Source: Alphaproteobacteria bacterium (GTDB lineage: Bacteria; Pseudomonadota; Alphaproteobacteria; MPNO01; VGEU01). Taken from it: a DNA stretch of 57,416 bases. Position numbers and translations under genes: made by a program. Where the stretch lies: assembly GCA_016869145.1 (NCBI GenBank), contig VGEU01000010.1:1-57416 (forward strand), written 5' to 3'. This document shows positions 3,627 to 24,986 of the stretch, piece by piece (the first letter of the stretch is position 1; each line of letters opens with the position of its first letter). The notes under the pieces were generated by a model, which had not been told where the DNA came from, ran no database searches, and was given only the letters and a program-made list of their open reading frames with translations.

Positions 3627-4618
3627 ACGCCCGCGCGGTTGTAGCCGGCCGCGTGCGGACGGAACATCGCGATGCCGTTCATGAAGCTGCGATAGCCTGC
3701 GTCCCGCATCCGCCGGTAGGCGTCATGCCGGTTGGCGTTGCAGCCGGCGACGAGGCGTTTCTGCCCGGCCGTCGCGGCGGCCGCCTCGGCGGCGGCGAGG
3801 AGGCGCGAGAAACGCTCGCCCGCGCCCGCACCATCGGCGCCCGAACCATCTGAGCCCGAACCATCTGAGCCCGAACCGTCTGAGCCCGAACTATCAGAGA
3901 CCACGGCGAACTTCACATAGAACGTGCCGCCACCGGCCTCCGATCCGGCGCCGATGTGACAGACGGCGAAGCCGGCGATGGCCCCGCTCTCGTAGAGGAG
4001 GAGCCCATCGCCGATCCCCTGGGCGACGCAATGCTCGATCTCGCGACCGAGGTCGAGACCGCGGTGCACGCGGTCGGCGACGGCACGGCAGCCGTCGAGC
4101 GCGGCGGCCCGCGCCGCACGATCGAGCGTCGAGAACGACACCGTGGCAGAATCAGGCGTTGCGTGGCCGACCGGTTTTTCCATCACCGCCGTCATCGCCG
4201 CCGGCCAGAAGCCATAGGTCTCGTAGAGGCGGATGTGCCTCGTGCTCTGCGGATGGGTGAACAGGCCGACGAAGCCGACGCCCCGACGATCGAACTCGGC
4301 GACCATCGCCGGCATCAGGAGCCGCGCGATCCCCTTGCTCCACCAGTCGGGGTGGACGGTGATCGGGCCGAGGATTCCGGCCGAGCCCCAGTGCATGCCG
4401 ATCACCGAGCCGATCACGGCGCCGTGGACATCGGCGACGAAGAGCAGCGCCGGATCGGTGCGGTAGCGGGTGCGGACGGTATCGGCATCGGCGCGGAACT
4501 TGGTCGGATCGGGGAGGCCGAAGAAGGTGCCGAACGCGAGACGGTGGACGCGGGCGACGGCGTCGAGATCGGCCTCGCGCGCCGGCCGGATGGTGACCGG
4601 CGGATCGGCGGCGTTCAT
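3602..4618 (-). CDS. GNAT-family N-acetyltransferase with a repeat linker
   Basis: A 338-residue protein with an N-terminal GNAT domain (about 8-150). The acetyl-CoA-binding strand-loop-helix is 'ITVHPDWWSKGIARLLM' at 86-102. The second half (155-338) looks like a divergent second GNAT-like lobe. A low-complexity Ser-Gly-Ser-Asp-Gly linker (about 241-267), encoded by a 15-bp minisatellite, interrupts it. The start codon overlaps the stop of the preceding bicupin gene as ATGA, so the two are translationally coupled in one operon. It is the last of four minus-strand genes. The acceptor substrate is unknown; the operon suggests a small carboxylate, an amine or a metabolite repair role. Confidence 0.85.
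   Translation of the reverse strand: MNAADPPVTIRPAREADLDAVARVHRLAFGTFFGLPDPTKFRADADTVRTRYRTDPALLFVADVHGAVIGSVIGMHWGSAGILGPITVHPDWWSKGIARLLMPAMVAEFDRRGVGFVGLFTHPQSTRHIRLYETYGFWPAAMTAVMEKPVGHATPDSATVSFSTLDRAARAAALDGCRAVADRVHRGLDLGREIEHCVAQGIGDGLLLYESGAIAGFAVCHIGAGSEAGGGTFYVKFAVVSDSSGSDGSGSDGSGSDGSGADGAGAGERFSRLLAAAEAAAATAGQKRLVAGCNANRHDAYRRMRDAGYRSFMNGIAMFRPHAAGYNRAGVYVADDWR
3825..3898. repeat. 15-bp minisatellite inside the GNAT gene
   Basis: About five imperfect copies of a 15-bp unit (plus strand, roughly GCCCGAACCATCTGA) lie end to end; the outer copies are most diverged. The unit length is a multiple of three, so copy-number changes keep the frame and alter the length of a Ser-Gly-Asp linker in the encoded protein. 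Confidence 0.85.
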
Positions 4619-5661
4619 GGCCGCTCTTCGCGCCAGAGGCCGAGCTTCTCCTGCGTCGCGCGGTCGGAGAAGCTGAACAGGATCGCGGTCTCGTCCGCCT
4701 CGTGCGCGTGGCTCGCCCAGCTCGGCACGACGAAGATGTCGCGCGGTCCCCAGGCGAAGCTGCGCGCGCCGATCACGGTGCGCCCCGATCCTTCCGCCAC
4801 CATGAAGATCGCGCCGTCGGTCGAGCGGTAGGGCGCGCCACGGAAGCCCGCGGGCAGGCGCTGCAGGAAGACGCCCATCGTCGGCATCGCATCGCCACCC
4901 GTCGCCGGGTTCACGAAGCGCATCTTGTGGCCGTGGCAGAGATCGGGCGGCGCGGCGGCGGCCATGGCCGCGAGCGCGGCGCGGCTCCGCGCGAAGGGGT
5001 AATGAACGAGCGGCGAGGTCGCGCGGTCGGGGCGGAAGGTCTCGGGCAGCATGTTCGACCCGAACCGCGCCAGCGTATCGCCGGCCGGCCGCGTCGCCGC
5101 CGCGCCGCCCGGACGCGCCGGCTCGAAGAAGGTGGTGTCGAGGAGCGCGAGGAGCCCGTTGTCGAGGCCGTCGAGCCAGACCATCGGCTGGTCGCCGTCA
5201 TGGCCGTGACCATGCCAGGTCCAGCTCGGCGTGATGATGAAGTCGCCCGCGGCCATCGGGATGCGCTCGCCGTCGACCATCGTATAGGCGCCCTCGCCCT
5301 CGACGATGAAGCGGAGCGCCGACTGGGTGTGACGGTGATCGGGCGCGGTCTCGCCGGGCATGATCAGCTGGAGACAGGCATAGAGGCTCCGCGTCGTTCC
5401 CTGGAACCCGTCGAGCGCCGGGTTCTGCAGCACGAGGACGCGCCGCGTCGCCTCCTCGGCGGTCACGAGGCGGCCCGCCTCGAGCAGCAGCGGACGGATG
5501 TCGTCATAGCGCCAGAGCGCCGGCACATAGGTCGGCGTCGGGCGCATCGGCACGAATCTCTGCGTTTCGACCCAGAGCGGCAGGATGTGGTGCGCGCCGA
5601 TGCGGCGGTAATAGTCGAGCCGTTCGGAAGTCTCAGGGACGGAAGTCTCAGGGACGGCCAC
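4615..5661 (-). CDS. bicupin dioxygenase, gentisate 1,2-dioxygenase-like
   Basis: A 348-residue bicupin of the gentisate/1-hydroxy-2-naphthoate dioxygenase family. The N-terminal cupin holds the Fe(II) ligands H109 and H111 ('PDHRHTQSALRFIVEGEG') and H150 ('PSWTWHGHGHDG'). The C-terminal cupin (about 240-340) contains 'DGAIFMVAEGSGRTVIG'. Authentic enzymes open the ring of gentisate between C1 and C2 to give maleylpyruvate; no maleylpyruvate isomerase or fumarylpyruvate hydrolase is next to it, so the substrate may differ. It follows the enolase-superfamily gene by 45 bases and overlaps the GNAT start by ATGA. The N-terminus contains a duplicated VPETS segment from a 15-bp tandem repeat. Confidence 0.85.
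   Translation of the reverse strand: MAVPETSVPETSERLDYYRRIGAHHILPLWVETQRFVPMRPTPTYVPALWRYDDIRPLLLEAGRLVTAEEATRRVLVLQNPALDGFQGTTRSLYACLQLIMPGETAPDHRHTQSALRFIVEGEGAYTMVDGERIPMAAGDFIITPSWTWHGHGHDGDQPMVWLDGLDNGLLALLDTTFFEPARPGGAAATRPAGDTLARFGSNMLPETFRPDRATSPLVHYPFARSRAALAAMAAAAPPDLCHGHKMRFVNPATGGDAMPTMGVFLQRLPAGFRGAPYRSTDGAIFMVAEGSGRTVIGARSFAWGPRDIFVVPSWASHAHEADETAILFSFSDRATQEKLGLWREERP
5626..5655. repeat. perfect 15-bp tandem duplication in the bicupin N-terminus
   Basis: GGAAGTCTCAGGGAC occurs twice in direct succession (5626-5640 and 5641-5655). It adds five residues (V-P-E-T-S) twice near the start of the bicupin protein, ahead of the folded domain. Confidence 0.85.
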
Positions 5662-13926: not shown

Positions 13927-13955
13927 TTGACAGCCTGGGGGGCCTCGCCTAGCTT
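13927..13955 (+). promoter_or_regulatory. promoter of the meta-cleavage operon
   Basis: A perfect TTGACA at 13927-13932 is followed after 17 bases by TAGCTT (13950-13955). This gives a transcript start near 13962 and a leader of about 65 bases before the GTG at 14027. Confidence 0.6.
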
Positions 13956-14026: not shown

Positions 14027-15514
14027 GTGGCCAGCCGGACAACCGACACGCCGCACAACGTCAGGGAGCTCCGGAACTATGTCGGCGGATCCTTCGTCGA
14101 CGGCACGCGGACCTTCGACAACATTACGCCGGTCGACGGCACGCTCCTCGCGCGGGTGCACGAGGCCGATCAGGCGACCGTCGACCGGGCGGTCCTCGCC
14201 GCGCGCGAGACCTACGAGAAGGTCTGGGGCCGCATGCCGGTCGAGGGCCGGGCCAAGCTTCTGTACGCCGTCGCCGACGGCATCGAGAAGCGCTTCGACG
14301 AGTTCGTCGCGGCCGAATCGGCCGACACCGGCAAGCCGCGCTCGCTCTCGTCCCATCTCGACATCCCGCGCGGCGCCGCGAATTTCCGCATCTTCGCCGA
14401 CCTGATCAAGTCGGTCGGCACCGAGTGCTACCCGATGGACACGCCCGACGGAAAGGGTGCGCTCAACTACACGATCCGCCAGCCACACGGCGTCGTCGGC
14501 GTGATCTCGCCGTGGAACCTGCCGCTTCTCCTCTCGACGTGGAAGATCGCGCCCGCCATGGCGAGCGGCAATTGCGTGATCCTGAAGCCGTCGGAGGAGA
14601 CCCCGACCACGGCGACGCTCCTCGCCGAGGTCATGCACGAGGTGGGCATCCCGCCGGGTGCCTTCAATGTCGTGCACGGGTTCGGCCCCAATTCCGCCGG
14701 CGAGTTCATCGCGAGACACCGCGGCATCGACGCCCTCACCTTCACCGGCGAGACGCGGACGGGCTCGGAGATCATGCGCTCGGCGTCGGCCAACGTGAAG
14801 GCGCTCTCGTTCGAGCTCGGCGGCAAGAACCCGGCGATCGTGTTCGCCGACTGCGACTTCGACGCGGCGATCGACGGCACGACGCGCTCGGTCTTCGCCA
14901 ATTGCGGCCAGGTCTGTCTGTCGTCCGAGCGGGTCTATGTCGAGCGGCCGATCTTCGACCGGTTCGTCGCCGCGCTCAAGGCGCGCGCGGAGACGATGAA
15001 GATCGGTCGGCCCGAGGACGCATCGACGCAGATGGGCCCCCTGATCTCGCGCGAGCACCGCGACAAGGTGTTGTCCTACTACACCCTCGCCAAGGCCGAG
15101 GGCGCAACCGTCGTCACCGGCGGCGGCGCGCCGCGCTTCGGCGACGAGCGCGACGGCGGCGCTTATGTCGATCCGACGATCTTCACCGGATTGTCCGAGG
15201 CCTCGCGCGTCCAGAAGGAGGAGATCTTCGGCCCCGTCTGCCACATCACGCCGTTCGACCGCGAGGAGGACGCCGTGCGCATGGCCAACGACACCGACTA
15301 CGGCCTCGCCGCGGTGATCTGGACCACCAACCTCACCCGCGCGCATCGCGTGTCGCAGCAGGTCCTCGCCGGCATCACCTGGGTCAATTGCTGGTTCCTC
15401 CGCGACCTCCGCACGCCGTTCGGCGGCATGAAGCTCTCCGGCATCGGCCGCGAGGGCGGCCAGCACGCGCTCAACTTCTATTCCGAGCAGCGCAATATCT
15501 GCATCAAGCTTTAG
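14027..15514 (+). CDS. 2-hydroxymuconate/2-aminomuconate semialdehyde dehydrogenase
   Basis: A 495-residue NAD-dependent aldehyde dehydrogenase. The core motif is '[18 protein letters not shown]' with N164. The general base is E263 in 'FELGGK' and the catalytic Cys is C297 in '[14 protein letters not shown]'. R115 and R459 sit where Pseudomonas fluorescens 2-aminomuconate semialdehyde dehydrogenase has its two substrate-carboxylate arginines (R120 and R464, from memory). These also occur in 2-hydroxymuconic semialdehyde dehydrogenases, so they do not separate the two activities. The GTG at 14027 is chosen because GAGGAGG lies at 14015-14021. It is the first gene of the five-gene lower meta-cleavage operon. 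Confidence 0.9.
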
Positions 15515-15522
15515 GGACAGTC

Positions 15523-16308
15523 ATGACCGAAGCAGCGATCGAGACGGCGGCGCGCGACATCCGCACCGCGTGGGAGACGGGCAAGGCCATTCCGGCGGTG
15601 CGCGATTCGCTTCCCGCCGGCGACGTCGCCGCGGCCTATGCCGTCCAGAGCCGCAACACGCGGCACTGGATCGCGACCGGCCGCCGGCCGTCAGGGCGCA
15701 AGATCGGTCTCACCGCCAAGGCGGTGCAGAAGCAGCTCGGCGTCGACCAGCCCGACTACGGCATCCTCTACGCCGACATGGAGGTCGTCGACGGCGACGA
15801 GATCGCGGCCGGGCGCGTGCTCCAGCCGCGCGCCGAGGCCGAGATCGCGCTCGTCCTCGAGAAGGACCTCACCGACCGCCAGCTCACGCTGATCGACCTG
15901 ATCGCCGCCACCGCCTACGCGCTGCCGGCGATCGAGGTGGTCGGGAGCCGCATCGCCAACTGGGACATCAAGATCGTCGACACCATCGCCGACAACGCCT
16001 CGTCCGGGCTCTATGTCCTCGGCACCTCGCCCGTCACGCTCGACCGGATCGACCTCCGGCTGTGCGGCATGTCGCTCGAGAAGAAGGGCGAGCCGGTCTC
16101 GGTCGGCGCCGGGCTCGCCTGTCTCGGCAATCCGCTCAACGCGGCGCTCTGGCTCGCGCGCAAGATGGTCGATGTCGGCATGCCGCTCAAGGCGGGCGAC
16201 ACCATCCTCACCGGCGCGCTCGGCCCGATGGCCCCGATCGCGCCGGGCGACGTGATCGAGGCGCGCATCTCGGGCCTCGGCTCAGTGCGGGCCGCCTTCG
16301 CGGCCTGA
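15523..16308 (+). CDS. dmpE: 2-oxopent-4-enoate (2-hydroxypentadienoate) hydratase
   Basis: A 261-residue member of the hydratase/decarboxylase (fumarylacetoacetase-like) family. It adds water to 2-hydroxypenta-2,4-dienoate to make 4-hydroxy-2-oxovalerate. Hydratase-type features are '[17 protein letters not shown]', the acidic metal site in '[15 protein letters not shown]', and '[20 protein letters not shown]'. The R-I-x-N/D-W version of the last motif is typical of DmpE/MhpD rather than of the decarboxylase paralogue encoded at 18302. It starts eight bases after the dehydrogenase stop. Confidence 0.88.
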
Positions 16309-16321
16309 TCGGAGACCGGAC

Positions 16322-17251
16322 ATGGCGAAGACCAAGGTCGCGATCATCGGCTCGGGCAATATCGGCACCGATCTGATGATCAAGGTGATGCGCACCTCGA
16401 AGGTCCTCGAGATGGGCGTCCTCGTCGGCGTCGATCCGTCCTCCGACGGGCTCGCGCGCGCGAAGCGTCTCGGTGTGGCGACCACCGACAAGGGCATCGA
16501 TGGTCTCGTCGCGATGGCGGAATGGAAGGAGATCGCGATCGTCTTCGACGCCACGTCGGCGAAGGCGCACAAGCACAATTCCGATGTCTGCGTGAAGGCG
16601 GGCAAGAAAATCATCGATCTGACGCCGGCCGCGATCGGCCCCTATGTGGTGCCGGTCGTCAACATGGACGAGCATCTCGCGGCGCCCAACATCAACATGG
16701 TGAGCTGCGGCGGCCAGGCGACGATCCCGATCGTCCACGCCGTCGCCCGCGTCGCGCCGGTCCATTATGCCGAGATCGTCGCCTCGATCGCCTCCAAGTC
16801 GGCCGGCCCCGGCACGCGCGCCAATATCGACGAGTTCACCGAGACGACCTCGAAGGGGCTCGAGATCGTCGGCAGCGCCGACAAGGGCAAGGCGATCATC
16901 GTGCTCAACCCGGCCGAGCCACCGCTGATCATGCGCGATACCGTCTATGTCCTCTCCGGCGACGCCGACACCGATGCGATCGCGAAATCGGTCAAGGACA
17001 TGGTCAAGGAGGTCCAGGCCTATGTGCCGGGCTACCGGCTCAAGCAGGAGGTGCAGTTCGAGCGCTTCGGCTCGAACAACCCGCTCCGCATCCCCGGTCT
17101 CGGCGAGTTCCGCGGCATCAAATCGTCGGTCTTCCTCGAGGTCGAGGGCGCCGGCCACTACCTTCCCAACTACGCCGGCAATCTCGACATCATGACCTCG
17201 GCCGCGCTCAAGACGGCGGAGCGCCTGGTCGAGCGGCATCTCGCCGCCTAG
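16322..17251 (+). CDS. dmpF: acetaldehyde dehydrogenase (acetylating)
   Basis: A 309-residue DmpF/MhpF-type enzyme. It converts acetaldehyde, NAD+ and CoA to acetyl-CoA in complex with the aldolase encoded next. The nucleotide motif is '[18 protein letters not shown]'. The catalytic Cys is in '[16 protein letters not shown]', and '[19 protein letters not shown]' is a family signature. It starts 13 bases after the hydratase gene. Channelling of the toxic aldehyde between the two subunits is established for the family. Confidence 0.95.
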
Positions 17252-17261
17252 GAGAACCGCG

Positions 17262-18302
17262 ATGGCGATCGACAAGGCGAAGAAGATCTACGTCCAGGAT
17301 GTGACGCTCCGCGACGGCATGCACGCGATCCGTCACCAATACGGCCTCGACCATATCAAGGCGATCTGCCAGGTGCTCGACGCGGCGAACGTGTCCGCGA
17401 TCGAGATAAGCCATGGCGACGGGCTCGCCGGCATGTCGTTCAACTACGGCTTCGCCAAGAACACCGATCTCGAATATATCGAGGCGGCCGCGTCTGTGAC
17501 CAAGAACGCGAAGATCGCGACGCTCCTGATCCCGGGCATCGGCACGGTGCACGATCTCCGCGAGGCCTATGAGGCGGGCGCGCGCTCGGTCCGCATCGCG
17601 ACCCATTGCACCGAGGCCGACATCTCCAAGCAGCACATGGAGTATGCGCGCGAGATCGGGATGGACGTCGCCGGCTTCCTGATGATGGCGCATATGAGCC
17701 CGGCGAAGGAGCTCGGCGCGCAGGCGAAGCTCATGGAGTCCTATGGCGCGCATTGCGTCTATGTCACCGATTCGGGCGGTGCGCTCCTGATGGAGGGCGT
17801 CGCCGAGCGCTTCAAGGTGTTCCAGGACGTCCTGAAGCCGACGACGCAGACCGGCATGCACGCGCACCACAATCTGTCGCTCGGCGTCGCCAACTCGATC
17901 GTCGCGCTCGACCACGGCGCGACGCGCATCGATGCCTCGCTCGGCGGCATGGGCGCCGGCGCCGGCAATGCGCCGCTCGAGGTCTTCATCGCCGTCGCCG
18001 ACCGCATGGGCCTCAACCACGGCTGCGACGTCTTCAAGCTGATGGATGCCTGCGAGGAGCTCGTCCGGCCGCTCCAGGATCGCCCGGTCCGGGTCGACCG
18101 CGAGACGCTCACGCTCGGCTATGCCGGCGTCTATTCGAGCTTCCTCCGCCATGCCGAGACGGCCTCCAAGAACTACGGCATCGATACCCGCGAGATCCTG
18201 GTCGAGCTCGGCAAGCGGCGCATGGTCGGCGGCCAGGAGGATATGATCGTCGACGTCGCGCTCGATCTCACCAAGGGCCGCGGCGCGAGCAAGGGAGCCT
18301 GA
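17262..18302 (+). CDS. dmpG: 4-hydroxy-2-oxovalerate aldolase
   Basis: A 346-residue HMGL-like class II aldolase that splits 4-hydroxy-2-oxovalerate into pyruvate and acetaldehyde. The catalytic R-D-G-x-H box is in '[15 protein letters not shown]'. The Mn-binding histidines are in '[15 protein letters not shown]', and '[18 protein letters not shown]' is a family signature. The stop overlaps the next start (TGATG). It is expected to form a heterotetramer with the acetaldehyde dehydrogenase encoded just upstream. Confidence 0.95.
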
Positions 18303-19075
18303 TGATGGCCAATGTCGTCAAGATCGCCGAGACGCTCGACAACGCCGCGCGCCATGCCGAGGCGATCGAGCAGATTTCCAACTACGACAAGATGACCCTG
18401 CCCGAGGCCTACGAGGTGCAGCGCACGCTGATCCGCCGCCGCCTCGACCGCGGCGAGAAGCGCGTCGGCATGAAGATGGGCTTCACCAGCCGCGCCAAGA
18501 TGGTGCAGATGGGGCTTTCGGATCTCGTCTGGGGCCGGCTCACCGACCAGATGGTGATCGAGGACGGCGGCGTTCTCGCGTTCAAGAACTACGTCCATCC
18601 GCGCGTCGAGCCGGAGGTGGCCTTCCTCCTCAAACGCCCGCTCGGCTGGCCGGTCACCGGCGCCGAGGCGCTCGCCGCGGTCGAGGCCGTCGCGCCGGCG
18701 ATGGAGATCATCGATTCCCGCTACAAGAACTTCAAGTTCTCGCTCGAGGACGTCGTCGCCGACAACTCGTCGTCGTCGGGCTTCGTCGTCGGGCCGTGGC
18801 AGAAGGCCGACGGGGATCTGACCAATCTCGGCATGGTGCTCGAGTTCGACGGCCGCCCGGTGCAGATCGGCTCGTCGGCGGCGATTCTCGGCAACCCGAT
18901 CCGCTCGCTCGTCGCCGCCGCGCGGCTGACGCACGAGGCCGAGGAAGGCCTGCAGGCCGGCTGGATCGTCATGGCGGGCGGTGCGACGGCGGCCGAGGCG
19001 TTGAAGCCCGGCGTCCATGTCCGCCACATCGTCGAGACGCTCGGCTTCGTGAGCTTCACGGTCTCGGCGGGCTAG
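18302..19075 (+). CDS. dmpH: 4-oxalocrotonate (2-oxo-3-hexenedioate) decarboxylase
   Basis: A 257-residue paralogue of the hydratase. It has decarboxylase-type motifs: 'VGMKMGFTSRAKMVQMGL', 'HPRVEPEVAFLLKRPL' (metal site) and 'DSRYKNFKFSLEDVVADNSS', the R-Y-x-N-F-K-F version found in DmpH/XylI. It removes CO2 from 4-oxalocrotonate to give 2-hydroxypentadienoate for the hydratase, with which it normally forms a complex. Start codons at 18302 and 18305 are both possible (TGATGATG overlap with the aldolase stop). No 4-oxalocrotonate tautomerase is seen in the operon. Confidence 0.88.
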   Translation: MMANVVKIAETLDNAARHAEAIEQISNYDKMTLPEAYEVQRTLIRRRLDRGEKRVGMKMGFTSRAKMVQMGLSDLVWGRLTDQMVIEDGGVLAFKNYVHPRVEPEVAFLLKRPLGWPVTGAEALAAVEAVAPAMEIIDSRYKNFKFSLEDVVADNSSSSGFVVGPWQKADGDLTNLGMVLEFDGRPVQIGSSAAILGNPIRSLVAAARLTHEAEEGLQAGWIVMAGGATAAEALKPGVHVRHIVETLGFVSFTVSAG

Positions 19076-19130: not shown

Positions 19131-19955
19131 ATGCTGATGCGCGCGATCCTGAAGACCGGGGAAGCGATCCCGGCGCTCGGGCTCGGCACCTGGAACGCCT
19201 TCGACGTCGGCGCTCAGATGCGCGACCGCGCCGGGCCCAAGGGCGTGCTCGATCTCTTCTTCGCGGCCGGCGGGCGCGTGATCGATTCCTCGCCCATGTA
19301 CGGCAAGGCCGAGACCGTGGTCGGCGATCTCCTCGATGCGACCGGCCAACGGGGCGCAGCCTGGATCGCGACCAAGGTGTGGACGACCGGCAAGGCCGCC
19401 GGCATCGAGCAGATGCGGTCCTCGGCGCGGAAGCTCCGAAAGCCGGCGCTCGATCTCATCCAGGTCCACAACCTCGTCGATTGCGAAACCCATCTCGACA
19501 CGCTCGCCGGCTGGAAGAAGGAGGGTGCGGTCCGCTATGTCGGGATCACCCACTACACGACCGGCGCGCTCAATGCGCTCGCCGACATCGTCGCCCGACG
19601 CGACATCGATTTCGTGCAGACGGTCTACTCGATCGGCACGCGCGAGGCCGAGCGACGCCTCTTGCCGCTCTGCGCCGACCGCGGCGTCGCGGTGATCGCG
19701 AACAAGCCGTTCGACACCGGCGCCCTCTTCCGCCGCGCCCGCGGCCGGAAACTGCCGCCCGTCGCCAAAGCGCTCGGCTGCCAGAGCTGGGCCGCGTTCT
19801 TCCTCAAGTTCATCCTCGGCCACCCGGCGATCACGGTCGCGATCCCGGCCTCGGGCGATCCCGATCACGCGCGCGACTGGGTGGATGCGGGCGCCGGCCC
19901 GATCCCCGACGAGGCGATGCGGCGGACGATGGCCGCGGCGTGGGACGCCTTGTAG
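19131..19955 (+). CDS. aldo/keto reductase
   Basis: A 274-residue NADPH-dependent oxidoreductase with a TIM-barrel fold. The catalytic tetrad is D52 and Y57 in 'VIDSSPMYGKAE', K82 in 'ATKVWTT' and H113 in 'LIQVHNL'. The nucleotide-binding end is 'VAIPASGDPDHARD'. The substrate is unknown. It follows the decarboxylase gene by 55 bases in the same direction, with purine-rich GAGGGAG upstream, so it may be the last gene of the meta operon. ATG codons at 19131 and 19137 are both possible starts. Confidence 0.88.
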   Translation: MLMRAILKTGEAIPALGLGTWNAFDVGAQMRDRAGPKGVLDLFFAAGGRVIDSSPMYGKAETVVGDLLDATGQRGAAWIATKVWTTGKAAGIEQMRSSARKLRKPALDLIQVHNLVDCETHLDTLAGWKKEGAVRYVGITHYTTGALNALADIVARRDIDFVQTVYSIGTREAERRLLPLCADRGVAVIANKPFDTGALFRRARGRKLPPVAKALGCQSWAAFFLKFILGHPAITVAIPASGDPDHARDWVDAGAGPIPDEAMRRTMAAAWDAL

Positions 19956-19981
19956 CGGCGCCCTTTTGTAGCGGCGCCCTT
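19951..19981. repeat. 15-bp direct duplication between convergent stops
   Basis: TGTAGCGGCGCCCTT occurs at 19951-19965 and again at 19967-19981. It spans the stop codon of the aldo/keto reductase and reaches the stop of the convergent cupin gene, so it looks like a recent tandem duplication of the gene junction. Confidence 0.8.
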
Positions 19982-20499
19982 CAGACCTGATCTGGGCGTG
20001 GCATCACGGTGCCGCAATTCGTGCAGGTCCGCGCCTTCTCGCTCTCGAAGAAGTTCTGATAGGCCTTCGACACCGGATCGCTCCGGTAGTCGGCGACCGT
20101 GAACGTCTCCTCGTGCAGGAAATTGTCGCAGGCCGGGCAGAACCAGTGGAACCGGTCGATCTCGCCCGGCTTGCGCATCCGCTCGATCACCAACAGGAAG
20201 GCATCCGGCGGGAAGCGCGGCGAGTGGGGCACGCCGGCGGCGGTGTAGATCGCCTGCCCCTCGTGCAGCACGTCAACCGCCTCCTTGCCCTCGGGCGTGC
20301 GGTAGTGGAGCCGCATGTCGCCCTTGATCATGTACATGACCTCGTCGGAGGCGTTCACGTGGAACTCGCTCCGGTACTCGCGCCCGCGCGCGATGAAGGC
20401 GAGCGATTCCGGGCGTTGCCAGAGGACGTGGACGCGCTTGCCCGACCGGGTGAGCTCGCCGCAGATCGGCGCGAAATCGGCAATCGGCATCGGCAGCAT
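19981..20499 (-). CDS. nbaC: 3-hydroxyanthranilate 3,4-dioxygenase-like cupin
   Basis: A 172-residue cupin with the features of bacterial 3-hydroxyanthranilate dioxygenase. The Fe(II) ligands are H47, E53 and H92. A rubredoxin-like C-terminal Cys4 site is formed by C121/C124 ('CPACD') and C159/C162 ('CTNCG'). R43, R95 and E106 line up with the substrate-binding residues R47, R99 and E110 of the Cupriavidus enzyme (from memory). The enzyme opens 3-hydroxyanthranilate to 2-amino-3-carboxymuconate semialdehyde. It is the last gene of the operon with the Rieske oxygenase and the PdxA-like dehydrogenase, so it is the likely ring-cleavage enzyme of this region; a related ortho-substituted benzoate as substrate is possible. 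Confidence 0.88.
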   Translation of the reverse strand: MLPMPIADFAPICGELTRSGKRVHVLWQRPESLAFIARGREYRSEFHVNASDEVMYMIKGDMRLHYRTPEGKEAVDVLHEGQAIYTAAGVPHSPRFPPDAFLLVIERMRKPGEIDRFHWFCPACDNFLHEETFTVADYRSDPVSKAYQNFFESEKARTCTNCGTVMPRPDQV

Positions 20500-20528
20500 G
20501 GCATCGCTCCCCGTCGGGTGTCGGCGCC

Positions 20529-21515
20529 CTAGACTACGCCTGAGACCCCGCTCATGGCGAGAAGGGTCGCGATCAGCGCCGACGGATCGGCGATGCCGCG
20601 GCCGGCGATGTCATAGGCCGAGCCGTGCGCGACGGAGGCGAAGAAGACCGGCGTCCCGATGGTGAACGCTGCGGTCCGGTCGAAGCCGGTGAGCTTGGCC
20701 GGGATATGGCCCTGGTCGTGGATCATGACGACGAAGCCGTCATAGCCGGGCTTGAGGAACATGATATCGGCGCCGAACGGGCCGTCGGCGCCGATGCCCG
20801 CGGCCTTCGCCGCGGCGATCGCGGGCACCACGGTCTCGATCTCCTCGCGGCCGAACAGCCCGCCTTCGCCGGCATGCGGGTTGACGCCCGAGACCGCGAT
20901 CCGGGGCCGCGCGATGCCGAGCCGGCGGAGCGCGTCGTCGGTCGCGGCGAGGCAGCGGAGGATGCGCGGGCGATCGATCAGCGCGAGCGCGCGGCGGAGC
21001 CCGACATGGAGGGTGACATGGGCGATCCGACGCTCCTCGTTCGCGAGCATCAGGAACACGTCCTCGGGCGCGGTCCCGGTGCGCAGGGCGATGAAGCCGG
21101 GATAGCCGTCGAAGGCGATGCCGGCGATTTCGATCGCCTTCTGCGTCTGCGGCGCGGCGACGATCGCCGCAATCGCGCCCGCCTGCGCGAGCTCGACTGC
21201 GCGCCCCGCCCAGTCGAGGATCGCCCGCCCGTTCTCGGCCCGGAGCGTCGCGGGCGCGAAGCCGGCGAGCGGAAACGGCGCCGCTTCGATCACATCGACC
21301 GTCCCCGGCGCGAATGCGGCCGCGGCGACGCTCGGGCACGGCCGGACCTCGAGCGGCAGCGCGAGATGCGCGATCCACCACCGGGCGAGCGCCGCATCGG
21401 CGACGAGAATCGGCCGCAACGCCCCGCGAACGCGCGGGTCAATCATCGCCTTGAGCGCGATCTCGGGCCCGATGCCGGCCGGGTCGCCCGGCGTGATCGC
21501 GATGACGGGTGGCAC
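20529..21515 (-). CDS. PdxA-family dehydrogenase (TphB-like)
   Basis: A 328-residue PdxA-fold NAD(P)-dependent dehydrogenase. The N-terminal signature is 'VIAITPGDPAGIGPEIALKA'. The metal ligands H170, H214 ('VNPHAGEGGLFGREE') and H266 ('MIHDQGHIPAKL') are conserved. PdxA oxidises 4-phosphohydroxy-threonine, but the family also includes TphB, which oxidatively decarboxylates the cis-diol made by terephthalate dioxygenase. Its position between oxygenase subunits and a ring-cleavage cupin makes a TphB-like role far more likely than a pyridoxine role. GTG at 21515 is chosen because AAAGGGGAG precedes it and the family start is met exactly. The beta-subunit gene ends 11 bases upstream. Confidence 0.85.
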   Translation of the reverse strand: MPPVIAITPGDPAGIGPEIALKAMIDPRVRGALRPILVADAALARWWIAHLALPLEVRPCPSVAAAAFAPGTVDVIEAAPFPLAGFAPATLRAENGRAILDWAGRAVELAQAGAIAAIVAAPQTQKAIEIAGIAFDGYPGFIALRTGTAPEDVFLMLANEERRIAHVTLHVGLRRALALIDRPRILRCLAATDDALRRLGIARPRIAVSGVNPHAGEGGLFGREEIETVVPAIAAAKAAGIGADGPFGADIMFLKPGYDGFVVMIHDQGHIPAKLTGFDRTAAFTIGTPVFFASVAHGSAYDIAGRGIADPSALIATLLAMSGVSGVV

Positions 21516-21526
21516 GCGCTCCCCTT

Positions 21527-22000
21527 TCAGATCGGCAGCACGATCAGCGTATCGATGCGCGCCGAATCGCAGATCACCAACCGCTCCTTGAACCGCGCCT
21601 TGCCGGCCTCGAATACGACGCGGTCGATGCATTTGCCGGAGCTGAACACCGCGATGTCGCCTTCCTGCATGGTGCGGATGACCGCATAGCCCGACCACAC
21701 CGTATAGACGCCCGCCGTCTCGTCGACGATGCGGAGCGCGCTCACGAGATGGCGGTACCAGTGCGGCTCGTAGATGTTGGCGCGGCGATAGGCGAGGACG
21801 CGGTCGCGCATCATGCCCGGGCTCGTGCAATTCATGATGCCGACGACCTGGCCCTTGGCCTGGTTCTCGCGCGGAATGATCGTGTAGGTGCCGTCGGCGG
21901 TGAAGAACGACGGCCATTCCTCGAGCCGGTCGTCGTCGATCGCGTGCGCATAGTCGGCGAGAAGATCCTCGATCGCGCGCCGGGTCTCCTCGCGCGTCAT
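21527..22000 (-). CDS. aromatic-ring-hydroxylating oxygenase, beta subunit
   Basis: A 157-residue NTF2/SnoaL-like protein typical of small subunits of Rieske oxygenases. It has 'LLADYAHAIDDDRLEEWPSF', 'ANIYEPHWYRHLVSALRIV' and a C-terminal strand 'ICDSARIDTLIVLPI'. The small subunit is structural in the alpha3beta3 enzyme and has no cofactor. The start overlaps the alpha-subunit stop (ATGA), so the two are made in equal amounts. It is similar in size to the beta subunits of anthranilate and terephthalate dioxygenases. Confidence 0.9.
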   Translation of the reverse strand: MTREETRRAIEDLLADYAHAIDDDRLEEWPSFFTADGTYTIIPRENQAKGQVVGIMNCTSPGMMRDRVLAYRRANIYEPHWYRHLVSALRIVDETAGVYTVWSGYAVIRTMQEGDIAVFSSGKCIDRVVFEAGKARFKERLVICDSARIDTLIVLPI

Positions 22001-23250
22001 CGGCCGGCACGTCCTTCCATGCAGTCGCGATAGCCGTTCCAGAAGCCGCGGATCGAGACCTCCGTCGCGCGCGAATCCCGGCTCGGCTCGACGGTGCGCC
22101 CGCCCATCTCGAGGATCGTCGCCTTGTCGCGATCGCCGCGCGTGCCGCGCTGGACCCAGCCGCCGACGACGCCGTCCTCCATCGAGATCAGCCCGCCGGG
22201 GCCGACCATGTTCGACTGGCGGACCCGGATCGCGTGCTGTGCGGGCGTATCGTCCTCGGTGCCGAGCACCCACCACATCAGCTCGCACGCCTCCGGTCCC
22301 CGCGGCAGGCAGAGCCGCACCGCGAGCGAGTTCGAGATCTGCTGTACGACGAAGTTGGGGAAGATGCTCTGGATCGCGAGCGTGGTGCCGCAGCTGAACT
22401 CGGCCCACTTGTCGATCAGCGACGGATCGGCGAGGCGGTATTCGTCGTCGACCGCGCGGAGCTTGTCGGCCGCGTACTGCTCCTCCTCGCGGTCGGTCGC
22501 CCCGATCGAGTAGCTGATATGGTGCCAGCCGCGGTCGGAGAGCTTGATGCCGCCGTCCATCGACAGCCGGTTGATGCGGAAGGTGGCCTGGAACAGATGG
22601 AGGAGGCTCGCGTGATAGGAATCACGCACGTTCTCCATGTAGAGCTTCCAGTTGTTCGGCATGTATTGGCTGTAGGTGCCGATCACCTTCATCCGCCGCC
22701 CGACCACGCGCTCGACATTGGGCCGCATCTCGGCGCCGATATAGTCGAAGAGCGAGGGCGCCGACGGGCTATAGGTCGCGAAGACGAGACCGGCGAAGGA
22801 CTCGCTCCGCAGCCGCCGCATGCCGTGCTTCGACATGTCGAAGTCGTCAGGCATGCCGCCCTTGTTGTTGAGCCCGCGCCGGAAGGCGACCGAGTTGAGC
22901 GCGCCGTCGAGATCGTAGGTCCAGTTGTGGTAGACGCAGGTCAGCCGCTCGAGGTTCTTCCCTTCCTTCTGGATGCAGACGAGATTGCCGCGATGGGCGC
23001 AACGGTTGACGAGCACGTTGATCCGCCCGTCGCGGCCGCGCACCATCACGACCGGCGTGTCGCCGACATAGTTGGTCTTGAAGTCGCCGGGCTGCGGGAC
23101 CTCCTGCTCGAGCCCGACGAAACTCCACGCCGGGCCGCGAAAGATGCGCGCCTGTTCCTCGGCGTAGACCGTGGGGTCGGTGTAGATCTGGTAGGGGACG
23201 GCGCTCACGCCCTCCCCAGGCCAGACGATCCGGTCATAGGCGGTGGCCAT
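21997..23250 (-). CDS. aromatic-ring-hydroxylating dioxygenase, alpha subunit
   Basis: A 417-residue catalytic subunit. The Rieske cluster ligands are C84/H86 ('NRCAHRGNLVC') and C105/H108 ('CVYHNWTYDLDG'). The mononuclear iron site is 'ENVRDSYHASLLHLF', with bridging D210 and ligands H213 and H218. Length and motifs fit the benzoate/anthranilate/terephthalate group of Rieske dioxygenases, which make cis-dihydrodiols of aromatic acids. The ATG at 23250 begins the family-similar region ('MATAYDRIVWPGEG'). It is the first gene of the minus-strand operon alpha-beta-PdxA-cupin, and it is divergent from the ferredoxin and reductase that should supply its electrons. The exact aromatic acid cannot be deduced. 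Confidence 0.93.
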   Translation of the reverse strand: MATAYDRIVWPGEGVSAVPYQIYTDPTVYAEEQARIFRGPAWSFVGLEQEVPQPGDFKTNYVGDTPVVMVRGRDGRINVLVNRCAHRGNLVCIQKEGKNLERLTCVYHNWTYDLDGALNSVAFRRGLNNKGGMPDDFDMSKHGMRRLRSESFAGLVFATYSPSAPSLFDYIGAEMRPNVERVVGRRMKVIGTYSQYMPNNWKLYMENVRDSYHASLLHLFQATFRINRLSMDGGIKLSDRGWHHISYSIGATDREEEQYAADKLRAVDDEYRLADPSLIDKWAEFSCGTTLAIQSIFPNFVVQQISNSLAVRLCLPRGPEACELMWWVLGTEDDTPAQHAIRVRQSNMVGPGGLISMEDGVVGGWVQRGTRGDRDKATILEMGGRTVEPSRDSRATEVSIRGFWNGYRDCMEGRAGR

Positions 23251-23416: not shown

Positions 23417-23740
23417 ATGTCCGACCTCGAATTCCATGCCGTCCTCAAGACCTCCGACCTCGATCCCGGCGAGGCGAAGCAGGTGCTGATCGGCCGCAAG
23501 GAGATCGCGATCTATAACCTCGAGGGCGCGTTCTACGCCACCGATGACATCTGCACCCACGCCTATGCCTCGCTCGCCGACGGCTATATCGAGGGCGACC
23601 GGGTCGAGTGCCCGCTGCATGGCGGCTGCTTCGAGATCAAGACCGGCAAGGCCTGCACTCCGCCTTGCGTCGAGGACCTGAAGACCTACACGGTCAAGAT
23701 CGAGGGCGATCAGATCTTCGTCGGCCTGCCGCGCGGCTGA
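23417..23740 (+). CDS. Rieske-type ferredoxin of the ring-hydroxylating oxygenase
   Basis: A 107-residue single-domain Rieske ferredoxin. The cluster ligands are in 'DDICTHAYASLADGYIEGD' (C-x-H) and 'VECPLHGGCFE' (C-x2-H). It resembles the ferredoxins of three-component dioxygenases such as naphthalene or AndA-type anthranilate dioxygenase. It passes single electrons from the reductase encoded 25 bases downstream to the alpha subunit encoded on the opposite strand. The start has an AAGGTG ribosome site. Confidence 0.93.
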   Translation: MSDLEFHAVLKTSDLDPGEAKQVLIGRKEIAIYNLEGAFYATDDICTHAYASLADGYIEGDRVECPLHGGCFEIKTGKACTPPCVEDLKTYTVKIEGDQIFVGLPRG

Positions 23741-23765
23741 CCGCCCGGCCGCATCGCGTCCGCCG

Positions 23766-24986
23766 ATGAGCGCGGAAACCTACCTCGTCATCGGCACCGG
23801 ACAGTCCGGCGCCTGGACGGCGCGTACGCTCCGCGACGAGGGCTTCGCCGGGCGGATCGTCCTGATCGGCGACGAGCGCCACCCGCCTTATGAGCGGCCG
23901 CCGCTCTCCAAGGAGCTTCTGTTCGGCGACATGCCGGTCGAGAAGACCTATGTCTTCCCCGAGCCCTCCTATGGCGAGAAGTCGATCGAGTGCCGCCTCG
24001 GCGTCGCGGTGACGCGGATCGAGCCGGCGGCCAAGCGCGTCCATCTCGGCACCGGCGAGACGCTCGGCTACGACAAGCTGATGATCGCGACCGGGAGCCG
24101 GGCACGACCGCTTCCGGTTCCAGGCGCGCGCCTCCCGGGCGTCTTCTATCTCCGGACGATCGACGACACCCGCGCGATCCGCGCTGCGATCCGCCCCGGC
24201 GGCAACGTCGTCGTGATCGGCGCCGGCTGGATCGGGCTCGAGGTCGCGGCCGGCGCTATCAAGCTCGGCGCCGCGGTGACGGTCGTCGAGGCCGCCGACC
24301 GCGTCTGCGCCCGCGCGCTGACGCCCGACCTCTCCGCCTATCTCCTCGCCCGCCACCGCGCCAAGGGCGCCGACATACGTCTCGGCACCGGCATCGCGCG
24401 GATCACCGGCGAGCCCGGCGCCTCGGGCGTTGTCCTCGCCAACGGCACCACGATCGCGGCCGACCTCGTGGTGATCGGGATCGGCATCGTCCCCAATTGC
24501 GAGATCGCCGAGGCCGCCGGGCTCGCCGTCGACAACGGGATCGTCGTCGACGAGATGGGCCGGACCTCCGATCCGTCGATCTATGCCGCCGGCGATGTGA
24601 CCAATCACCCGAACGCGCAGCTCGGCCGGCGCATCCGCCTCGAATCCTGGGAGAACGCGCAGAACCAGGCGATCAACGCCGCCCGCGCGATGCTCGGCAA
24701 GGGCACCGCCTATGCCGAGATCCCGTGGTTCTGGTCCGACCAGTACGACCTCAACATCCAGCTCGTCGGCCTGCCGCTCGATGCCCGCGACGCCGTCACG
24801 CGCGGCGATCCGGCGGCCGACCAGTTCATCACGTTCTATCTCAAGGACGGCCGCATCGACAGCGCGGCCGCCATCAACGCCGGTCGCGACGTCCGCTTCG
24901 TCCGCCGGCTCATGCAAGCGGGCAAAATCGTCGACCGCGCCCTCCTCGCCGACCCCGCAACGAAGCTCCAGGGTCTCCTCAAATAG
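23766..24986 (+). CDS. ferredoxin reductase (FAD/NAD(P)H-dependent)
   Basis: A 406-residue flavoprotein. The FAD motif is 'LVIGTGQSGAWTARTL', the NAD motif is 'VVVIGAGWIGLEVAAGA', and the second FAD contact is 'SIYAAGDVTNHPN'. A C-terminal reductase domain covers about 320-406. This is the reductase type of three-component ring-hydroxylating oxygenases and cytochrome P450 systems. With the preceding ferredoxin it completes the electron chain NAD(P)H to FAD to Rieske ferredoxin to oxygenase. Its last eight bases overlap the end of the convergent TPR glycosyltransferase gene. Confidence 0.92.
   Translation: MSAETYLVIGTGQSGAWTARTLRDEGFAGRIVLIGDERHPPYERPPLSKELLFGDMPVEKTYVFPEPSYGEKSIECRLGVAVTRIEPAAKRVHLGTGETLGYDKLMIATGSRARPLPVPGARLPGVFYLRTIDDTRAIRAAIRPGGNVVVIGAGWIGLEVAAGAIKLGAAVTVVEAADRVCARALTPDLSAYLLARHRAKGADIRLGTGIARITGEPGASGVVLANGTTIAADLVVIGIGIVPNCEIAEAAGLAVDNGIVVDEMGRTSDPSIYAAGDVTNHPNAQLGRRIRLESWENAQNQAINAARAMLGKGTAYAEIPWFWSDQYDLNIQLVGLPLDARDAVTRGDPAADQFITFYLKDGRIDSAAAINAGRDVRFVRRLMQAGKIVDRALLADPATKLQGLLK

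Follow-up and report, generated by a model that had tools for sequence, protein, structure and literature searches.

The DNA analysed here (the window) is a stretch of 57,416 nucleotides, contig C10 (VGEU01000010.1) of the 3.9-Mb draft genome (GCA_016869145.1; 247 contigs) of an Alphaproteobacteria bacterium, which is the sole genome for its family among those compared. At about 14.0-25.0 kb it holds a catabolic island of ~11 kb, made up of a minus-strand operon, divergent electron-transfer genes and a convergent lower-pathway cluster (Table 1). The operon (19981-23250) consists of four genes encoding the alpha and beta subunits of a Rieske oxygenase, a PdxA-family protein and a cupin related to 3-hydroxyanthranilate dioxygenase (HAO). 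It had been singled out in an earlier sequence-only reading, and its tight packing on the minus strand, with an ATGA overlap at the alpha/beta junction and gaps of 11 bp (beta/PdxA-family) and 29 bp (PdxA-family/cupin), agrees with our coordinates; the family names given there to the four genes likewise concur with Pfam, NCBIfam and PDB matches. The interval chosen in that reading captured the operon but left out 23417-24986 and 14027-19075, which are needed for reading the pathway. A 166-bp intergenic region separates the alpha gene from the divergent Rieske ferredoxin gene, and at the other end of the operon the cupin gene converges with that of an aldo/keto reductase, their 3' ends lying 25 bp apart. 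An assembly chimera is unlikely, because the nearest relatives of the alpha subunit and of the cupin both belong to the same order and the base composition is even. We propose, with a probability of roughly 40%, that the island encodes a pathway for terephthalate (or a close para-dicarboxylate) which runs via protocatechuate, cleavage of its 2,3 bond by the cupin, and 2-hydroxymuconate-6-semialdehyde (HMS).

The oxygenase resembles terephthalate dioxygenase (TPADO). The closest solved structures to its alpha subunit are TPADO itself (7q04; phmmer 7.6e-131) and a close homologue (7vju; 1.6e-131), and the alignment shows that the iron ligands H210, H215 and D356 are kept and that the substrate contacts N224, S243, I290, R309 and R390 are all identical to those of TPADO. 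Three of these (N224, S243 and R390) hold the far carboxylate of terephthalate, are confined to TPADO among characterised relatives and have been proposed as a motif for finding such enzymes (PMC9060491). The pocket residues are replaced in two annotated AndAc copies, in a salicylate-type enzyme and in salicylate 5-hydroxylase. Anthranilate dioxygenase, the best NCBIfam name for both subunits (AndAc for alpha, AndAd for beta), was rejected, since both fall under the cut-off and the pocket differs from that of the two AndAc copies. The full TPADO pocket bears out the earlier suggestion, at the level of sequence, that the substrate is an aromatic diacid. Two further alpha subunits encoded in this genome (contigs C80 and C1) keep S243, R309 and R390, have V (C80) or N (C1) at position 224, and have no TphB gene adjoining.

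The PdxA-family protein finds its best PDB match in terephthalate cis-dihydrodiol dehydrogenase (4aty; 4.6e-65). In a tree with E. coli PdxA, the PdxA encoded on contig C128 of this genome and D-threonate-4-phosphate dehydrogenase as comparators, it groups with seven TphB-type proteins (100/99), and the C128 protein, the other PF04166 copy of the genome, clusters with E. coli PdxA. Residues common to PdxA and D-threonate-4-phosphate dehydrogenase, namely the Asn-Lys motif and an Asn and an Arg that come after HDQG, show the TphB-type replacements in this protein, and the score on the PdxA equivalog TIGR00557 (254.0 bits) lies under the cut-off of 290.35. We therefore reject true PdxA as the identity of a protein which scores under that cut-off, has lost the phosphate-substrate residues and sits in the tree with TphB. 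The TphB-type decarboxylating diol dehydrogenase of the sequence-only reading is thus supported by both signature residues and tree; the case in which the protein would have grouped with true PdxA as the only copy does not apply, because it sits with TphB and true PdxA is encoded on C128. Given the full TPADO pocket, the TphB grouping and the separate PdxA, we infer that alpha, beta and TphB constitute a terephthalate-type module, the product of which would be protocatechuate.

The gene order alpha-beta-TphB is that of the tph/tpa operons of Comamonas sp. E6 and Rhodococcus jostii RHA1, with which the module also shares the TPADO pocket and the TphB-type signature. The same order occurs on plasmids of R. 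jostii RHA1, Paenarthrobacter aurescens TC1, Pseudomonas veronii, Variovorax sp. WDL1 and Paracoccus albus. Unlike the tph/tpa operons of Comamonas sp. E6 and R. jostii RHA1, which have a single TphA1-type reductase, the island pairs a Rieske ferredoxin with a separate reductase, its alpha subunit lies outside the TphB-linked clade and a cupin has been added. The upper part of the island thus appears to be a module of terephthalate type whose electron chain is unusual. On Variovorax sp. WDL1 plasmid 4 (locus L101), a tph-type cluster is followed by genes for an alpha/beta hydrolase and a VOC-family protein, which suggests that TphB modules can recruit differing ring-cleaving enzymes.

The cupin is the sole enzyme of ring-cleaving type within the island. 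It exceeds the cut-off of the Pfam 3-HAO model (66.9 bits) and falls under those of both NCBIfam HAO equivalog models (119.9 bits against 220, and 108.8 against 145.95). A paralogue on contig C40 is a true HAO, with 260.5 and 256.7 bits on the same two models, over the cut-offs. The residues H47, E53, H92, C121, C124, C159 and C162 are invariant in all 36 members of the clade to which the cupin belongs, and R43 and E106 align with R47 and E110 of HAO, so that the iron ligands, Cys4 site and two substrate residues listed in the sequence-only reading are indeed kept. The third residue listed there, R95, proved not to be the HAO substrate arginine. HAO reads H-S-P-Q-R99 where the cupin reads H-S-P-R95-F96, which places R95 opposite Q98 and F96 opposite R99 in an ungapped stretch shared by 36/36 clade members. 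R99 is the residue with which HAO binds the carboxylate of its substrate, and Arg occupies this position in all true HAOs of the alignment. With both equivalog cut-offs missed, R99 replaced by Phe throughout the clade and a true HAO elsewhere in the genome, we reject 3-hydroxyanthranilate dioxygenase as the identity of the cupin, and with it the HAO-like role that had been assigned to it. HAO and NbaC share with it the cupin family, the 2-His-1-Glu iron and Cys4 sites and the R47 and E110 equivalents. The cupin is best described, from its sequence, as a probable 2-His-1-Glu iron enzyme of an uncharacterised, HAO-related clade distinct from HAO.

This clade is found in 23 of the 27 genomes of the window's order and in none of 397 other genomes sampled from the phylum, with scattered members elsewhere. 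A RidA-family gene is the neighbour of the cupin gene, 13-142 bp away, at 25 of 35 distinct clade loci. The window locus has no such neighbour; the orthologous RidA (76% identity) is encoded on contig C18, with no catabolic cluster in the stretch read there.

Table 1. Genes of the catabolic island, with window positions and the basis for each assignment.
Feature	Position	Strand	Basis
Rieske oxygenase alpha, TphA2 type, 417 aa	21997..23250	-	phmmer to 7vju/7q04; pocket and Fe ligands kept; tree
Rieske oxygenase beta, 157 aa	21527..22000	-	NCBIfam AndAd 3.4e-50, under cut-off; Pfam SnoaL_4 over cut-off, Ring_hydroxyl_B under
TphB-type cis-dihydrodiol dehydrogenase (PdxA superfamily), 328 aa, GTG start	20529..21515	-	PDB 4aty; TphB signature; tree
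HAO-related mononuclear-iron cupin, 172 aa, proposed ring-cleaving enzyme	19981..20499	-	Pfam 3-HAO; clade alignment
Rieske [2Fe-2S] ferredoxin	23417..23740	+	Pfam Rieske 3.4e-21; HcaC/AndAb-like, under cut-offs
Ferredoxin-NAD reductase, AndAa/HcaD-like	23766..24986	+	Pfam Pyr_redox_2 and Reductase_C; AndAa 3.4e-133, under cut-off
HMS dehydrogenase, DmpC/PraB type	14027..15514	+	TIGR03216, 842.8 bits vs cut-off 693.25
2-oxopent-4-enoate hydratase-like	15523..16308	+	NF008461, 336.8 bits vs cut-off 350
Acetaldehyde dehydrogenase (acetylating)	16322..17251	+	TIGR03215, 466.9 bits vs cut-off 282.25
4-hydroxy-2-oxovalerate aldolase	17262..18302	+	TIGR03217, 567.5 bits vs cut-off 286
2-oxo-3-hexenedioate (4-oxalocrotonate) decarboxylase-like	18302..19075	+	TIGR03218, 242.6 bits vs cut-off 350.55
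Aldo/keto reductase, no clear role	19131..19955	+	Pfam Aldo_ket_red 4.3e-29

In the pathway we propose, the ferredoxin reductase, the Rieske ferredoxin and the alpha-beta oxygenase would very probably add O2 at a carboxylated carbon and its neighbour, and the TphB-type enzyme would with similar confidence oxidise and decarboxylate the resulting cis-diol to protocatechuate. The cupin might then cleave protocatechuate between C2 and C3 to give 5-carboxy-2-hydroxymuconate-6-semialdehyde (5-carboxy-HMS), from which loss of CO2 would yield HMS. The convergent plus-strand operon is annotated well enough that it probably takes HMS to pyruvate and acetyl-CoA: its HMS dehydrogenase, acetaldehyde dehydrogenase and aldolase exceed curated cut-offs, and the hydratase-like and decarboxylase-like proteins each come out at the top of four related models, yet under the cut-offs. 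Entry of the lower cluster at HMS fits cleavage at the 2,3 bond followed by one loss of CO2, since this is the one of the three known modes of protocatechuate cleavage which reaches HMS. No intradiol dioxygenase was found in a search of the genome, and the cupin gene is co-directional with and closely follows that of TphB, which we count in favour of a role for the cupin in the pathway. The genome has no PF01361 match for a 4-oxalocrotonate tautomerase, so tautomerisation would be unenzymatic or due to some other protein. Such an absence seems tolerable, because a protocatechuate 2,3-cleavage (pra) pathway with the gene for the tautomerase PraC deleted supported growth of an engineered Acinetobacter that carried other mutations as well.

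Parts of this scheme have counterparts in known systems. Paenibacillus sp. JJ-1b converts protocatechuate by its pra pathway to 5-carboxy-HMS and then HMS, as proposed here, and encodes the five lower enzymes in the same order, if the letters B, E, G, F and D are taken to stand for HMS dehydrogenase, hydratase, acetaldehyde dehydrogenase, aldolase and decarboxylase. The order reported for 2,3-cleavage in Paenibacillus is praB-E-G-F-D (PMC12455638). One difference is that the island has no PraC-type tautomerase; its proposed ring-cleaving enzyme belongs to the cupins, which may or may not set it apart from PraA. The nearest complete analogue of the island is the opa cluster for o-phthalate of Pseudomonas sp. 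PTH10, which also combines a ferredoxin-and-reductase Rieske system and a diol dehydrogenase with a meta-cleavage lower route via HMS (PMC6362003). There, however, the dehydrogenase is of the BenD type, the ring is opened by a DhbA-type 2,3-dihydroxybenzoate 3,4-dioxygenase, an NbaD-like decarboxylase follows and OpaA is inactive on terephthalate (PMC6362003). In Comamonas sp. E6 protocatechuate undergoes 4,5-cleavage, unlike the HMS route encoded here. For the cupin step, a precedent comes from Bordetella sp. 10d, in which the monocupin AhdA cleaves 4-amino-3-hydroxybenzoate at its 2,3 bond; the product passes to a deaminase of the RidA/YjgF type, and non-enzymatic decarboxylation leads to HMS (PMC4539516, PMC6449761, PMC10306065). 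The substrate of that enzyme is protocatechuate with one hydroxyl swapped for an amino group, and by this analogy cupin 2,3-cleavage of protocatechuate would be chemically reasonable. Most loci of the cupin clade are likewise RidA-linked and in this gene pairing resemble the Bordetella system; the window locus is not, and the Bordetella system has no terephthalate module. A shift of the cupin from an aminophenol to its catechol analogue may also have removed the need for RidA, which fits the location of RidA on a separate contig here. We hold to be doubtful the narrower claim that the cupin acts as a protocatechuate 2,3-dioxygenase, having been recruited from a RidA-linked enzyme of aminophenol type that is spread across the order, such that terephthalate is degraded by 2,3-cleavage and not by the 4,5- or 3,4-cleavage of other systems. 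Neither a cupin protocatechuate 2,3-dioxygenase nor a terephthalate cluster with an HAO-type cupin of this kind was found described in the open-licence literature (one query wording was probably unable to match).

Several observations weigh against the proposed pathway. The link between the cupin and the oxygenase is known from one genome. The sequence-only reading had staked its scheme on the two being conserved together elsewhere, and they are together in none of 35 other cupin loci, nor does the cupin accompany an oxygenase or TphB at the remaining alpha loci or at the plasmid loci of TphB; likewise, a widely conserved four-gene operon was sought and not found among 385 genomes of the class and 398 of the phylum (TphB query), the cupin loci, alpha loci from the order and class, and a plasmid collection. 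The cupin's connection with the pathway is weakened, because no other locus pairs it with an oxygenase, but stands unrefuted, given that in this genome all four genes are packed tightly into one operon. Its usual partner is RidA, which is on another contig in this genome, and RidA as a partner implies an amino substrate. No 5-carboxy-HMS decarboxylase of the PraH type is annotated in the island, the genome beyond it not having been searched for a PraH homologue. Finally, the genome encodes four LigB-family proteins which could cleave protocatechuate, one of them near genes for a PobA-type hydroxylase and an RraA/LigK-like aldolase. It is therefore equally plausible that the module makes protocatechuate from terephthalate, that a LigB-family dioxygenase opens the ring and that the cupin, a dioxygenase of aminophenol type linked to RidA, has been relocated and serves another function, for example on an aminohydroxybenzoate. 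Such a relocation would agree with the position of RidA directly beside the cupin at most clade loci, with the presence of the cupin in nearly all genomes of an order in which the oxygenase-TphB module is not similarly widespread, and with the aminophenol-dioxygenase iron site kept in the clade. It does not readily explain why the cupin gene follows TphB so closely on the same strand with RidA away on C18, nor why the island should encode an HMS pathway, a route that has no part in 4,5-cleavage, and none of the four LigB proteins exceeds a protocatechuate 4,5-dioxygenase cut-off. We place this explanation level with cleavage of protocatechuate by the cupin, because the latter is linked to the module in one genome, competes with the LigB proteins and lacks a decarboxylase in the island.

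The remaining alternatives concern the substrate. The oxygenase may act on another carboxylated aromatic, such as a lignin-derived or substituted para-dicarboxylate, the cupin being specific for the substituted catechol that results. A tree of alpha subunits, as proposed in the earlier reading, gives a mixed answer: ours joins the wider TPADO-like group (100/99), next to an alpha of the same order without TphB (67% identical; 100/97), but falls outside the clade of seven TphB-adjacent alphas from other bacteria (100/98). The TPADO motif also appears non-exclusive to terephthalate, because it also occurs in alphas from the same order and class whose genes have no TphB neighbour, and AromaDeg contains several clusters related to terephthalate dioxygenase without known substrate (PMC4250580). 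Set against these points are the five identical contact residues and the TphB-type partner, and we regard a different substrate as improbable. Terephthalate is then the leading candidate on sequence grounds, yet one among others, because the motif occurs without TphB and the alpha subunit lies outside the TphB-linked clade. The scheme of the sequence-only reading, in which an amino acid or diacid is turned into 3-hydroxyanthranilate or a close relative and opened by the cupin in the manner of HAO, is less probable still. It can draw on the Pfam 3-HAO match and on the conserved iron and Cys4 sites, but has to contend with the missed equivalog cut-offs, the clade-wide loss of R99 and the true HAO on C40. 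Moreover, a Rieske dioxygenase with a diol dehydrogenase gives a catechol, not an aminophenol, and TPADO frees the amino group from 2-aminoterephthalate (PMC9060491).

If the proposed pathway is true, it would be a third ring-cleavage route for protocatechuate derived from terephthalate, leading directly to pyruvate and acetyl-CoA. Terephthalate is a building block of the plastic polyethylene terephthalate (PET), and such a route would be relevant to PET upcycling. Regardless of the pathway, the analysis defines an HAO-related cupin clade that goes together with RidA and that almost all genomes of one bacterial order encode.

Some further observations concern relatives of the island genes and other parts of the window. 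Alpha relatives from the same order at three loci (L067, L068 and L069) adjoin genes for substrate-binding-protein-like proteins, without TphB; L067 and L068 were read as having T243, not S243, and the three appear to form a separate TPADO-like lineage. In a neighbouring family (L084-L088), the cupin-RidA pair is found with a DUF1445-type hydro-lyase and with metallo-beta-lactamase-fold-like and FAD-linked-oxidase-like proteins, a neighbourhood which suggests an unrecognised pathway; what we take by eye to be mraZ, rsmH and ftsL genes adjoin it. On the plus strand of the window, 1380-2615 encodes an Amidohydro_2 protein without an NCBIfam name, a homologue of which (66% identical; locus L015, 8686-9909) lies 8 kb from a cupin-clade gene, so that amidohydrolase and cupin genes may be loosely linked; as a candidate for the orphan decarboxylase it was rejected, with nothing in its favour besides the one shared contig. 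A second ring-cleaving enzyme of the window, a bicupin encoded at 4615-5661 on the minus strand, exceeds the NCBIfam gentisate 1,2-dioxygenase cut-off (464.1 against 442.1 bits). By eye, a consensus-like promoter (TTGACA, 17 bp, TAGCTT) can be picked out at 13927-13955, ahead of the gene for HMS dehydrogenase.

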